Assembly: GCF_900155545.1 (NCBI RefSeq)
Contig: NZ_LT732526.1
Span: 1,432,796 to 1,496,795, forward strand
Direction of reading: 5' to 3'
Source: Clostridium sp. Marseille-P2415
GTDB taxonomy: Bacteria > Bacillota > Clostridia > Lachnospirales > Lachnospiraceae
DNA: 64,000 bases
Under the pieces are notes generated by a model, which did not search any database, was not told where the DNA came from, and saw nothing but the letters and a program-made list of their open reading frames with translations. The translations under genes and the position numbers were made by a program. Shown one piece after another: positions 19,191 to 23,966 of this stretch. The first letter of the stretch is position 1. Each line of letters opens with the position of its first letter.

Positions 19191-20066
19191 ATGATACAGA
19201 TTAAGAATTTTTTACCGGCCGCTAAAAAAGCCCTGTTGCTTGCCGCCCTTATTTCCACCGCTTCCGTTTTTGCCGCACAGGCAGAAGAAGAATCCGGGCC
19301 TGCCTTTGCGCCTCCGGTAACCAAAACCGTGACTCCTGAAATCGGACCGGGCATACGTAACAACAACTTCATCGTAGTTCTTGACCCCGGCCACGGCAAA
19401 ACAGACGGCCATTATTCCGGCTGCAGCTTCGAATACAATGGAGTCACTTATTATGAAGACGAAATAACCATGAAAATTGCCAACTACACAAAGCAGTATC
19501 TGGAACAAAATTCCAACTATACGGTTTATTTAACAAAAGACAGTGCGGAAACAACCGTTGCCCTGGAACAGCGTGCCGCCTTTGCCGCTTCTGTTCATGC
19601 AGACTTATTCGTAAGCCAGCATGTGGATTCGGCATTGGGTAACGGAACGGTTAAAAATGCCTATGGAGTAAGCTCCATGGCTCCCAGGACCGGCCGCTAT
19701 AACAGCGATCTTGCCGTTCAGTCCCAGGAGGCGGCCAATACCATTTTAAATCAGTTAAACGCGCTGGGCCTTCATAACCGCGGACTGCTCCTGCGGGATT
19801 CACAGAATGGAACCTTATATCCGGACGGAAGCCAGGCCGATTATTATGCAATTCCCCGTTATTCCCAGATGTACGGCATCCGCGGTTTCATTATTGAGCA
19901 CGGCTTTTTAAATCATCCCAGCGATCTGACTTTATTTCTGTCCACAGAAGAGCAATATAAGGCCCTGGGAGAAGCCGACGCCAAAGGGATTATGGAATAT
20001 TTAAAAAAAGCGGGAAAAGCCCCTCAGCCTCAAACGCCCCAGAACAGCGAAACAAACGCCGGCTAA
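19191..20066 (+). CDS. secreted N-acetylmuramoyl-L-alanine amidase (Amidase_3)
   Basis: A 291-aa wall hydrolase that cuts the lactyl-amide bond between MurNAc and the stem peptide. A signal peptide (AAKKALLLAALISTASVFAAQA) ends near residue 31. Zinc ligands and catalytic residues of the family are visible: H68 in LDPGHGK, a Glu in YYEDE (89-91), H144 in SQHVDS, and the catalytic E236 in IIEHGF. GGAGG precedes the ATG by seven bases. No wall-binding repeats are present. It lies just upstream of a spore-protease-like gene on the same strand, so a role in sporulation or germination is possible but not shown. GCCGGC repeats around the stop (20058-20082) may form a weak terminator. Confidence 0.92.
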   Translation: MIQIKNFLPAAKKALLLAALISTASVFAAQAEEESGPAFAPPVTKTVTPEIGPGIRNNNFIVVLDPGHGKTDGHYSGCSFEYNGVTYYEDEITMKIANYTKQYLEQNSNYTVYLTKDSAETTVALEQRAAFAASVHADLFVSQHVDSALGNGTVKNAYGVSSMAPRTGRYNSDLAVQSQEAANTILNQLNALGLHNRGLLLRDSQNGTLYPDGSQADYYAIPRYSQMYGIRGFIIEHGFLNHPSDLTLFLSTEEQYKALGEADAKGIMEYLKKAGKAPQPQTPQNSETNAG

Positions 20067-20100
20067 ACATATGGCAGCCGGCACTTTACCCGCAAAACTC

Positions 20101-20127
20101 ATAACGGGAACCCTGCCGCATAAAATA
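20101..20127 (+). promoter_or_regulatory. sporulation sigma-type promoter of subtilase copy 1
   Basis: AAAACTCATA ends at 20103, and CATAAAATA (20119-20127) fits the CATANNNTA -10 pattern of SigE/SigK and related sporulation factors; 15 bases separate ATA and CATA. The same two blocks at the same spacing precede the second copy at 22227-22253. Confidence 0.5.
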
Positions 20128-20167
20128 TATTATATGTTTTGTTCGAATGCGACAGGGAGGAATGATT

Positions 20168-21838
20168 TTGGTTAAAGCACTGGATAATAATTATTATGAT
20201 TTGATCATTAACAACGTTTTGGCTTCGACCTATGCTACCGATAGTATTACTTATTTAAACGAAAGGCATTCCATGCTTCACCTTCCTGCCGGTAACGTAA
20301 ATCCCTGCGACATAGGACGGCATCCTTATCACAGTTTTCCCTCACTGTTTACCCTTACTTCTACCGTAAGCCTTGAAAAATCAGGAGTTGCAACGATCCA
20401 GCGGAATCCTTCTTTAGCCCTGTTCGGCCTCGGGGTCTTAGTCGCTGTCATTGATACCGGCATCGATTATCAGCATCCGGCATTCCGAAATAATGACGGG
20501 ACCTCCCGCATCCTTACCATGTGGGACCAGACCGATCAAAGCGGTACGATCCCCGATACCTTCACCTTTGGCTCAGAATACAGCAGAGAGCAGATCAATA
20601 CTGCACTGAGCTCAGAAAACCCAATGTCCGTTGTCCCGGAAACGGATACCAATGGTCATGGAACCGCCATAGCCAGCATACTGGCAGGTACGCCAAATGA
20701 AGACGGATCGTTCAGCGGTGTCGTGCCCCAGGCTGATCTGGTAATCATAAAGCTGAAAGAGGCAAAAGAAAATTTAAAAAGAATCTTTTTTGTGCCGGAA
20801 AGTGCACTCTGCTATCAGGAATCTGATGTGATACTTGGTATTCGCTATGCTGTTACGGTTTCGGGACAGCTAAACCGTCCCATTGTCATATGCCTTGCCC
20901 TTGGAACCAGCCAGGGAGGCCATGACGGAAAAGGGGCTACAAGCAGCTACATAGATACTCTTTCCTTATTGCCCGGGTACGGGGTTTCCGTTTCTGCCGG
21001 GAATGAAGGGAATGCCCAAAGGCACTATTTTAATGCTACTGCAGCAGCTCCGTACTATCATGATATCGAATTAAGGGTAGGGAATAATGATACTATGCTT
21101 TCTATGGAAATCTGGTCCTATTCTCCCGCAAGGCTTTCCATAGATGTCTCTTCTCCAAACCGGGAATCCACTCAGCCTGTTTTTCCTTCCCTTAATCAAT
21201 GCAGGAGATTCGGCTTTATCTTTACCCAGACGATCATCTACGTCAACAACATTATTTTTGAGGAAGAAACCGGGGATCAGCTTATCCTGCTGCGCTTTCA
21301 AAATCTCCTTCCGGGAGTCTGGTATCTCCGTGTTCAAAACCCTGAAAATGAACCATTCTCATTTCATTCCTGGCTGCCTTCCGGAGATTTGATATCAAAC
21401 GATACATTCTTCCTGAATCCCAACCCGGACACTACTATAACTTCCCCCGGAAATGCAAGGCACCAGCTGACCGTCACGGCCTACAATCAGTTAAATGACA
21501 GCATCCTGACGGAATCCGGCAGGGGCTATACAAGGTCCGGCGAGATCAAACCTGATATCGCGGCTCCAGGCTATCAGATTCCCTGCGCAGTTCCAGGAAA
21601 CCAATACGGAACGGCAACCGGTACCGGGGCTGCCGCCGCACAGGCAGCCGGCATTATTGCCATGGCTTTTGAATGGGCGATTGTCAGGGGGAATTATCCA
21701 AGAATTACCGGAAATAATGTCAACCGCCTCCTGATCAGCGGCGCAATCCGGAGCCCGTCCAATACGTATCCGAATAACATATGGGGATACGGTCAGATTG
21801 ATGTAAACAGAATGTTTGAGCGTTTTACCAGCCAATGA
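20168..21838 (+). CDS. subtilase-family (S8) Csp-like pseudoprotease, copy 1
   Basis: A 556-aa protein started at the TTG at 20168, seven bases after GGGAGG and aligned with the start of copy 2. The S8 fold is clear: Asp motif VAVIDTGID (D96), His motif NGHGTAIAS (H164), and oxyanion-hole Asn in SAGNEGN. At the Ser motif, where active members read GTSxAA, this protein reads GTGAAAAQAAG, so the nucleophile is Gly (G487). It should be catalytically dead. A beta-rich insert (about 290-440) separates the halves, as in Csp proteins of clostridial spores. There is no signal peptide. In Clostridioides, pseudoprotease Csp proteins act in germinant signalling; a similar role here is an inference. Confidence 0.88.
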   Translation: MVKALDNNYYDLIINNVLASTYATDSITYLNERHSMLHLPAGNVNPCDIGRHPYHSFPSLFTLTSTVSLEKSGVATIQRNPSLALFGLGVLVAVIDTGIDYQHPAFRNNDGTSRILTMWDQTDQSGTIPDTFTFGSEYSREQINTALSSENPMSVVPETDTNGHGTAIASILAGTPNEDGSFSGVVPQADLVIIKLKEAKENLKRIFFVPESALCYQESDVILGIRYAVTVSGQLNRPIVICLALGTSQGGHDGKGATSSYIDTLSLLPGYGVSVSAGNEGNAQRHYFNATAAAPYYHDIELRVGNNDTMLSMEIWSYSPARLSIDVSSPNRESTQPVFPSLNQCRRFGFIFTQTIIYVNNIIFEEETGDQLILLRFQNLLPGVWYLRVQNPENEPFSFHSWLPSGDLISNDTFFLNPNPDTTITSPGNARHQLTVTAYNQLNDSILTESGRGYTRSGEIKPDIAAPGYQIPCAVPGNQYGTATGTGAAAAQAAGIIAMAFEWAIVRGNYPRITGNNVNRLLISGAIRSPSNTYPNNIWGYGQIDVNRMFERFTSQ

Positions 21839-21854
21839 TCCCCCGCTGAAAAAA

Positions 21855-21899
21855 AACCTTCAAGCCGGGTAATTTACTTCCCAACAGCTTGAAGGTTTT
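21855..21899. terminator. bidirectional terminator between subtilase copy 1 and rubredoxin
   Basis: AACCTTCAAGC pairs with GCTTGAAGGTT around a 21-base loop. TTTT follows on the plus strand and T8 on the minus strand, so it serves both convergent genes. Confidence 0.85.
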
Positions 21900-21928
21900 A
21901 CCTGCTTACCAGTGAAATGGCTGCAGTT

Positions 21929-22087
21929 TTACTCTTCTACGAACATGTCCTTACCAACTCCGCAAACCGGACATACCCAATCCTCAGGCAAATCTTCAAA
22001 TGCAGTACCTGGCTCAATACCAGAATCCGGATCACCGATTTCAGGATCGTACACATATCCGCATGGCTCACAAACATACTTTCCCAT
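21929..22087 (-). CDS. rubredoxin
   Basis: A 52-aa iron protein beginning [16 protein letters not shown]. The two CxxC knuckles, CEPCG and CPVCG, bind one iron in an FeS4 site. The middle shows the usual [15 protein letters not shown] pattern. AGGAGGTGA fixes the ATG at 22087. It carries single electrons in the cytoplasm, commonly to peroxide- or oxygen-reducing partners in anaerobes. It sits alone between the duplicated subtilase units on the opposite strand. Confidence 0.97.
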
Positions 22088-22226
22088 CCCAATCACCTCC
22101 TTTAATTTCACTGTGTTTCATTTATAGCATATTATACCATTTTTATCAATAGATTTATGAAACATAGATTTATAAAACATGCCCGGGAAGAACTGCCGGC
22201 AGCCGGAGCTTCGCCAGTTAAAACTC

Positions 22227-22253
22227 ATATTAGGAACCCGGAAGCATAAACTA
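22227..22253 (+). promoter_or_regulatory. sporulation sigma-type promoter of subtilase copy 2
   Basis: AAAACTCATA (ATA at 22227-22229), 15 bases, then CATAAACTA (22245-22253), the same layout as upstream of copy 1, and again followed by TATATTATATGTTTTGTT. Confidence 0.5.
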
Positions 22254-22292
22254 TATTATATGTTTTGTTTAAATAAACAGGGGGAGTTGATT

Positions 22293-23966
22293 TTGCAAAA
22301 AATACTGGATAATAATTATTATGATCTGATTATCAACAACACCTTAGCTCCGACCTATGATACTGGTGATAATATAACTTATATGAACAGAGTGCATTCT
22401 TTGCTTCATATTCCTGTCGGAAATGCAAATCCCTGCGACTTGGGCCGGCATTCCTATAGCAGCTTTCCAACACTTTATACCCTTACTTCTACCATTGCCC
22501 TCGAAAAATCCGGTGTTGCAACGGTCCAGCGAAATCCGGCTTTAGCTTTGTTCGGGCTTGGAGTTCTGGTCGCTGTCATTGATACCGGTATTGATTACCG
22601 GCATCCGGCATTCCTATTTAATGACGGAACCTCCCGTATCCTTACCATGTGGGATCAAACCGAGCAAAGCGGTACCATTCCCGAAGCCTTCACCTATGGC
22701 TCAGAATACAGCAGAGAACAAATCAATACCGCATTAAGCTCAGATGACCCTTTGTCCGTTGTTCCCACGACGGATTTAAATGGGCATGGAACCGCTATGG
22801 CCAGCATATTGGCAGGTACTCCGAATGAAGACGGATCGTTCAGCGGTGTAGTACCTCAGGCCGACCTGGTGATCATAAAATTGAAAGAAGCAAAACAGAA
22901 CTTAAAAAACATTTTTTTTGTTCCGGAAAATGCTCTCTGCTATCAGGAATCCGACATCATACTTGGTGTCCGCTATGCGGTTACGGCAGCAGAACGCTTC
23001 AGCCGCCCTGTTGTCATATGCATCTCTCTGGGAAGCAGTCAGGGAGGCCATGACGGCAAAGACGCAATCAGCGGCTACTTAGACCACCTTTCCCTGCTGC
23101 CTGGAAACGCGGTTTCAGTTTCTGCCGGAAATGAAGGGAATGACCAAAGGCACTATTTTAATGCTACTACCGCAGCCCCGTACTATCATGATGTTGAATT
23201 AAGAGTAGGGAATAATGACACTATGTTTTCCATGGAAATCTGGTCCTATACTCCGGCAAGGCTTTCCATAGATGTCTCTTCCCCGAACCGTGAATCCACC
23301 CGGCCGGTCTTTCCCTCCCTTAATCAATGCAGAAGGTTCAGCTTTATATTTACCCAGACGATTATTTACGTTAACAACATCATTTTTGAGGAAGAATCCG
23401 GAGATCAGCTTATTCTGCTGCGCTTTCAAAATCTCCTCCCGGGAATCTGGTATCTTCGTGTTCAAAACCCTGAAAATGAACCATTCTCATTTCATTCCTG
23501 GCTGCCTTCCGGAGATTTGATATCAAATGATACATTTTTCCTGAATTCCAATCCGGATACTACCATAACTTCTCCCGGAAATGCAAGGCATCCGCTGACC
23601 GTCACCGCCTATAACCAGCTGAATGACAGCATCCTGACGGAATCCAGCAGAGGTTATACAAGAATCGGCGAGATCAAACCTGATATCGCTGCTCCAGGTT
23701 ATCAGATTCCCTGTGCAGTGCCCGGAAACCAATACGGTACCGCAACCGGTACCGGGGCCGCAGCCGCTCAGTCAGCCGGTATTGTTGCAATGGTCTTTGA
23801 GTGGGCAATTGTCAGGGGAAATTATCCAAGAATAACCGGAAATAATGTCAACCGCCTCCTGATCGGCGGTGCAATCCGGAGCCCGTCCGATACATATCCG
23901 AATAACATATGGGGATACGGTCAGGTTGATGTAAACAGACTGTTTGAGCGTTTTACCAGCCAATGA
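22293..23966 (+). CDS. subtilase-family (S8) Csp-like pseudoprotease, copy 2
   Basis: A 557-aa paralogue of the gene at 20168, nearly collinear with it. The TTG at 22293 follows GGGGGAG; a longer upstream reading is not supported because the homology starts here (xxLDNNYYDLIINN). The triad is again incomplete: Asp in VAVIDTGIDY (D97) and His in NGHGTAMAS (H165) are kept, but the Ser motif reads GTGAAAAQSAG (G488). Differences from copy 1 are mostly conservative and spread over the length, with a cluster around the 225-260 region. Loss of the same residue in both copies shows it predates the duplication, and the frame has been maintained since, which points to a selected non-catalytic role. 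Confidence 0.88.
   Translation: MQKILDNNYYDLIINNTLAPTYDTGDNITYMNRVHSLLHIPVGNANPCDLGRHSYSSFPTLYTLTSTIALEKSGVATVQRNPALALFGLGVLVAVIDTGIDYRHPAFLFNDGTSRILTMWDQTEQSGTIPEAFTYGSEYSREQINTALSSDDPLSVVPTTDLNGHGTAMASILAGTPNEDGSFSGVVPQADLVIIKLKEAKQNLKNIFFVPENALCYQESDIILGVRYAVTAAERFSRPVVICISLGSSQGGHDGKDAISGYLDHLSLLPGNAVSVSAGNEGNDQRHYFNATTAAPYYHDVELRVGNNDTMFSMEIWSYTPARLSIDVSSPNRESTRPVFPSLNQCRRFSFIFTQTIIYVNNIIFEEESGDQLILLRFQNLLPGIWYLRVQNPENEPFSFHSWLPSGDLISNDTFFLNSNPDTTITSPGNARHPLTVTAYNQLNDSILTESSRGYTRIGEIKPDIAAPGYQIPCAVPGNQYGTATGTGAAAAQSAGIVAMVFEWAIVRGNYPRITGNNVNRLLIGGAIRSPSDTYPNNIWGYGQVDVNRLFERFTSQ

Follow-up and report, generated by a model that had tools for sequence, protein, structure and literature searches.

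Ten Csp-like subtilases without the catalytic serine in a Lachnospiraceae genome: probable germination regulators upstream of CspB and SleC

In a stretch of 64,000 nucleotides from Clostridium sp. Marseille-P2415 (contig NZ_LT732526.1), referred to here as the window, two neighbouring genes on the plus strand, A (20168..21838) and B (22293..23966), encode Csp-like subtilases without the catalytic serine. They are two of ten intact Csp pseudoproteases in the host genome, which comprises 5.25 Mb in nine contigs. The explanation that we hold to be probable is that these dead proteins are germination regulators acting upstream of CspB and SleC, and by analogy a receptor role for them is likely. 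A fuller version is put forward tentatively. In it, some ten soluble, partly paired pseudoproteases would serve as germinant receptors feeding one CspB and SleC in a genus without GerB-type receptors, the change from serine to glycine would have occurred once and independently, and one sub-family that regained serine or cysteine may be a protease again.

The frames of A and B are both intact. Read from TTG starts at 20168 and 22293, which were picked by eye from the spacing of the ribosome-binding site and from the paralogues, the proteins have 556 and 557 amino acids (aa), respectively; longer open reading frames (ORFs) begin at 20147 and 22179. The Asp, His and oxyanion Asn are retained as D96, H164 and N279 in A and as D97, H165 and N280 in B. 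The serine is replaced by Gly487 in A (codon GGG, 21626..21628, plus strand) and by Gly488 in B (codon GGG, 23754..23756, plus strand), and the GTS motif reads GTG in each; neither protein has the intact Asp-His-Ser triad of the active Csp members. In the alignment this glycine shares a column with Gly485 of Clostridioides difficile CspC and with the serine of CspB-type proteins. The residues and their numbering agree with a preliminary description of this DNA, and the likeness to CspC that it had proposed at the serine position holds as well.

A and B are 86% identical and belong to Peptidase_S8 of Pfam (105 and 100 bits). The top NCBIfam models are CspBA (298 and 294 bits) and CspC (301 and 280 bits), with scores far under the cut-offs of 1250 and 675 bits. 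The closest solved structures in the PDB are CspA, CspC and CspB, with alignments that begin near residue 70 and run to the C-terminal end. The Pfam CspB_prodomain has no match in A or B. Their N-terminus is linked by hhalign to the N-termini of Ser-bearing second Csps (99.7%) and weakly to those of CspB (94%, E 1.5e-7), the aligned stretch reaching in both cases into the start of the subtilase domain. Inspection of the pseudoproteases by eye showed no signal peptide.

Could the missing serine be the result of sequencing error or gene decay? All ten intact paralogues, with mutual identities of 58–86%, have glycine at the serine position (GTG or GSG), which makes a sequencing error very unlikely. 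Decay was likewise rejected, since ten intact copies carry the same change and the ratio of nonsynonymous to synonymous substitution (dN/dS) is well below 1. This ratio, the Ka/Ks check proposed earlier, is 0.137 between A and B, and 0.050 and 0.058 for A and B against the orthologue at locus L040, the latter comparison having dS near saturation. The two genes are under purifying selection, as their intact frames had been taken to imply. The Asp, His and oxyanion Asn are also retained in all ten proteins, while two triad residues are missing from each of C. difficile CspC and CspA, and this would suit enzymes that still cleave by means of another nucleophile or water. Set against such activity is glycine at the nucleophile column in 52 of the 57 rows of the clade described below, and we regard it as very improbable.

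No other S8 match of the genome falls in the window, in keeping with the earlier statement that no active partner is present there. An active paralogue and SleC, for which a search of the genome had been recommended, are both found elsewhere. The one intact CspB-type protease lies at about 810.2 kb of contig C9; it has the motif GTSFATP with the serine present, a Pfam CspB prodomain (107 bits) and its best match in C. perfringens CspB (327 bits), and it is 30–34% identical to the ten pseudoproteases. The SleC homologue of 420 aa, at about 1933.2 kb of C9, matches the pre-pro form of SleC (PDB 9h68) with 457 bits over residues 14–418. The GerB permease model PF03845 has no match in this genome. 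Directly before the active cspB there is a gene for a 758-aa protein with a SpoIID/LytB domain (L034, 5873–8149), which is a possible second lytic partner.

No Ger homologues are known in C. difficile (PMC3789822). Its CspC and CspA pair as a heterodimer, which is proposed to act on CspB and hence on SleC (PMC12880746). The proteins described here resemble CspC and CspA across the subtilase and jelly-roll parts (204–254 bits, beginning near residue 70) and likewise have an incomplete triad, and they share with the C. difficile system an active CspB and SleC in the same genome and the absence of a match to a GerB-type permease. This kinship, the shared CspB and SleC, the absent GerB match and the promoter motif discussed below are the reasons for the analogy. 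In sporulating cells the mother cell would probably produce the pseudoproteases, and they would be loaded into the spore as soluble germination regulators, where they would sense or relay a germinant signal and release or activate the single active CspB. CspB would then cleave pro-SleC, and cortex hydrolysis would start. We infer the spore location, ligand sensing, dimer formation and control of CspB from the C. difficile system.

There are differences from that system. The serine losses appear independent; the His and Ser positions are taken by Thr and Gly in CspC and by Gln and Ala in CspA, whereas here Ser alone is lost and the His is kept in 10 of 10; and the two pseudoproteases of C. difficile compare with ten here, which are unfused and dispersed. 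Orthology of A and B to CspC is not supported. C. perfringens CspB and the Ser-bearing second Csps of Lachnospiraceae are of the same family, and those second Csps in other genera are the nearest outgroup; in contrast to the ten glycines here, most of the second Csps read in other Lachnospiraceae keep the serine. GerA-type receptors are membrane A/B/C complexes. As with their repertoires, a genome with several paralogues might respond to several germinants, by analogy only; unlike them, the proteins here are subtilase-like, with no signal peptide by eye and no GerB match in the genome.

The sequence near the His and Gly positions is among the least variable in the ten paralogues, and stretches of the prodomain and jelly-roll vary most, with regional means that differ little (0.72–0.87 bits). 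Such a pattern would be expected of a conserved binding face, and the dead copies may be scaffolds, chaperones or inhibitors that bind CspB, SleC or each other and keep them safe in the spore, without sensing a ligand. A stabilising effect of CspA on CspC in the spore has been discussed (PMC12880746). However, ten diverged copies exceed the apparent need for storage and the sub-families keep fixed pairs, so that we consider a pure storage role unlikely.

A motif that resembles a mother-cell promoter of the sigma-E or sigma-K type, TCATA[AT]-N13-GCATAA, is present 5' of both window genes. It lies at 20099..20123 (plus strand), 44 nucleotides (nt) before the start of A, and at 22225..22249 (plus strand), 43 nt before the start of B. 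The likeness is to what we take to be the exact mother-cell -10 consensus. The motif was counted for genes with a placeable start and 200 clean bases 5' of it, which was the case for 120 of 144 unique Gly-type rows and for no Ser-type second Csp; the relatives in this count, as in the locus and pair counts below, are homologous and their loci overlap in part, and they should not be taken as independent events. It was found before 64 of the 120 Gly-type genes, 8/8 Ser/Cys genes and 2 of 378 control ORFs, the controls being taken from loci L040–L113. It ends 41–48 nt before the start, and the spacer is exactly 13 in 64/64. Looser patterns gave 67/120 versus 8/378 and 84/120 versus 31/378 in the controls. 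A sigma-G-like pattern was found in 4/120 and 6/378, and a simplified sigma-A pattern was no commoner than in the controls (6/120 versus 27/378). The csp operon of C. difficile is sigma-E dependent (PMC3789822).

The motif, the only feature that points to sporulation, would also suit proteins of the spore structure or coat, or some other sporulation role outside germination. The kinship to germination Csps over both the subtilase and jelly-roll parts, together with the presence of CspB and SleC in the same genome, makes this improbable. A vegetative role in signalling or defence, unrelated to spores, has no observation in its favour and is very doubtful: the sigma-A pattern is not enriched over the controls, and the mother-cell-like motif is.

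Several observations weigh against the proposed role as germination regulators. The promoter motif was spotted by eye and then counted, the counts are not independent because the genes are homologous, and 56 of the 120 Gly-type genes do not have the motif; furthermore, the gap of 15 nt between ATA and CATA is under the classical 16–18 (PMC3789822). The contact residues of the CspC:CspA dimer are not conserved at the positions that can be mapped in A and B. Those that differ are Asp429, Arg456, Gln516 and Thr520 of CspC and Asp1008, Arg1036, Gln1090, Gln1094 and Thr1098 of CspA; Arg896 of CspA and Tyr361 of CspC lie outside the mapping. Weak matches to PF03845 (21–27 bits) occur in 9 of 25 same-genus genomes, with four at or over the cut-off. 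Among 14 control genomes, 6 also match the model, E. coli included, and we therefore read the weak genus matches as transporter cross-talk. In addition, each of the 25 same-genus genomes has one GerA-family place (two pieces in G023). Loss of all Ger function is not proven, given these GerA places and a search that did not extend to GerC. The GerA-family gene of the host (L275, 6752–8374) is an orphan, with no GerB or GerC recognised among the neighbouring ORFs, insofar as an inspection of their starts by eye could tell. The absence of GerB is common across the family, where 16 of 70 genomes pass the PF03845 cut-off, and is thus not special to this genus.

Is the dead state inherited in common with C. 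difficile CspC? In a tree of 97 rows (IQ-TREE, motif columns removed, midpoint root), 57 rows form one clade (100/100) with 52 Gly, 3 Ser, 1 Cys and 1 Ala at the nucleophile column. Its sister consists of rows from other Lachnospiraceae, most of which keep the serine (9 Ser, 2 Gly), and this topology is most simply read as a single loss of serine to glycine at the base of the clade. C. difficile CspA and CspC group away from it, together with second halves of CspBA-like fusions that bear Ser. The approximately unbiased (AU) test rejected the topology that joins CspC to the Gly clade (p = 1.4e-4), with the caveat that CspC has a long branch. On these separate branches and under the same caveat, common descent of the dead state is rejected, and the two serine losses appear independent.

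Four Ser or Cys rows form a group (100/100) deep within the Gly clade. A topology in which the Gly rows are held together without this group was rejected (p 2.6e-6), the group having been seen before it was tested. The codons of the eight Ser/Cys genes are AGC, AGT, TGC or TGT, which a change of one base would turn into GGC or GGT. The simplest reading is that one sub-family went from glycine back to a serine or cysteine nucleophile; such proteins may be active again. In this sub-family the position is Ser or Cys at L067–L069, L071, L072, L074, L085 and L095, and Gly at L073, L076, L078 and L087; natural Cys variants are thus included, and the genes are on the minus strand beside those of the 724917 sub-family. 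No gene of the Ser/Cys sub-family was found in the genome of the host.

A and B had been described as sitting side by side. They are indeed on the same strand and close; however, a 52-aa ORF, named by eye as rubredoxin-like, lies between them on the minus strand (21929–22087), and each has its own promoter-like motif. An Amidase_3 gene (19191–20066) stands beside the gene of their type (win-type), a place kept in 14 of 15 related loci. In 14 of 15 win-type loci the order is amidase, single win-type gene, rubredoxin, cupin, and two win-type genes are present in the window alone. The window pair thus looks like a recent local duplication within one sub-family, and one of the two, by position B, is the extra copy, since 14 of the 15 loci have a single gene in this arrangement.

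Conserved pairs are formed by other paralogues. Across the loci of the host and 74 loci from named genomes, each distinct sequence entering once, two particular sub-families are neighbours in 21 tandem pairs of one gene order and in 4 of the opposite order, and 13 divergent pairs join the Ser/Cys-containing sub-family (14 genes) with that of gene 724917 of the host. The suggestion that A and B are a special matched pair of co-receptors was rejected, since two win-type genes stand together in the window alone. A swapped-charge contact in the pair, R470–E498 (595-aa numbering of B), was considered; we give it no weight because the win-type orthologues from the 15 loci read R with Q, I or L. Opposite charges at these two columns occur in 4 of 151 Gly-type rows (p 0.016) and in 14 of 110 Ser-type rows (p 0.0005) of related sequences, in both cases more often than in shuffles.

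Among named genomes, the Csp search places Lacrimispora species, and genomes of the same kind that bear the titles Clostridium or Hungatella, nearest to the host, which suggests a Lacrimispora-like member of Lachnospiraceae. Each of the 24 genomes sampled in the genus has 7–19 profile matches, which include CspB and weaker S8 proteins, so that the pseudoprotease counts are lower; long matches number at least 9 in G001, 10 in G005, 8 in G008 and 9 in G013. In one locus from each of these 24 genomes, all 41 Csp domains whose active-site columns were read are DHNG (Asp, His, oxyanion Asn, and Gly for Ser). A wider set of 99 relative loci, 74 from named genome records and 25 from other records, contains 171 Csp ORFs, of which 15 are partial and 156 have all four positions (140 DHNG, 7 DHDG, 5 DHNC, 3 DHNS and 1 DHNA). 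The DHDG proteins, in which the oxyanion Asn is replaced by Asp as well, are found at L104, L106–L109, L112 and L087. A match to the CspB prodomain over the cut-off is present in 24 of 25 genomes of the genus, with two such genes in G011, and the genome without it (G010) is 67% complete. The Csp ORFs read at these places, 25 in all, are DHNS without exception; that of G023 lies in a frame that is split from its prodomain.

Across the family, 57 of 70 genomes sampled have a match to the CspBA model (E ≤0.001), some of these being weak S8 matches. Loci were chosen among the matches listed, before the residue was known. Serine is present in 30/30 CspB halves read and in 35 of 41 second-type Csps from 39 loci, one of the 35 having an altered oxyanion residue; five others have Gly and one has Cys. 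Not included in the 41 are three partial matches, one CspB and two domains that belong to another family. The phylum-level sample had almost no strong Csp match beyond the genome of the host and one other. In another family of the order, a single genome (G037; L278–L282) has 23 second-type Csp matches, and in the part of its loci read all 15 complete domains (14 second-type and one CspB half) keep Ser. This suggests a separate Csp amplification without triad loss, and the idea that loss of serine causes amplification is unsupported. Fusions of CspB and CspA-like halves with Ser in both are present in several other families (L242/L174 of G038, L289 of G039, L280 of G037, and L292–L295), and fusion and loss of activity are therefore separate events.

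The Csps of Lachnospiraceae are called catalytically competent, or predicted to be so, in the introductions of three papers (PMC6636752, PMC6021603, PMC12880746), and Csp pseudoproteases have been said to appear unique to Peptostreptococcaceae (PMC6636752). The statement holds for most second-type Csps read here and fails for this genus and a few others. No earlier report of Csp pseudoproteases in Lachnospiraceae or Lacrimispora was found by title or the start of the abstract among the papers listed, in a search that left subscription papers and preprints mostly outside. A Lachnospiraceae genus with dead, amplified and partly paired Csps is an apparent second origin of such proteins. It makes two questions of the field testable outside C. 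difficile: do Csp pseudoproteases sense germinants, and how is CspB switched on? Ten natural paralogues, Ser, Cys and Gly variants at one position and fixed gene pairs are a ready set for comparison.

Several relatives of the host are presumably not gut bacteria, and a common bile-acid signal should therefore not be assumed. Bile acids are possible germination signals within the family; they raised the recovery of Lachnospiraceae from ethanol-treated faeces in one study (PMC7490687), in which we did not see this genus named.

A remnant of a broken pseudoprotease gene, nearest to the win-type, is present at about 8.2–9.0 kb of L032. At L035 (5728–14104), a Lachnocin-type radical-SAM maturase (831 bits) and an ABC exporter lie close to an S8 protein with a further match to TIGR04066, and the region is a peptide cluster. 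Two metagenome-assembled genomes titled Paenibacillaceae, SIG287 (L041) and SIG286 (L045), have genes that are 75–76% identical to those described here and share the gene neighbours found in Lacrimispora, and for these reasons their names look wrong.

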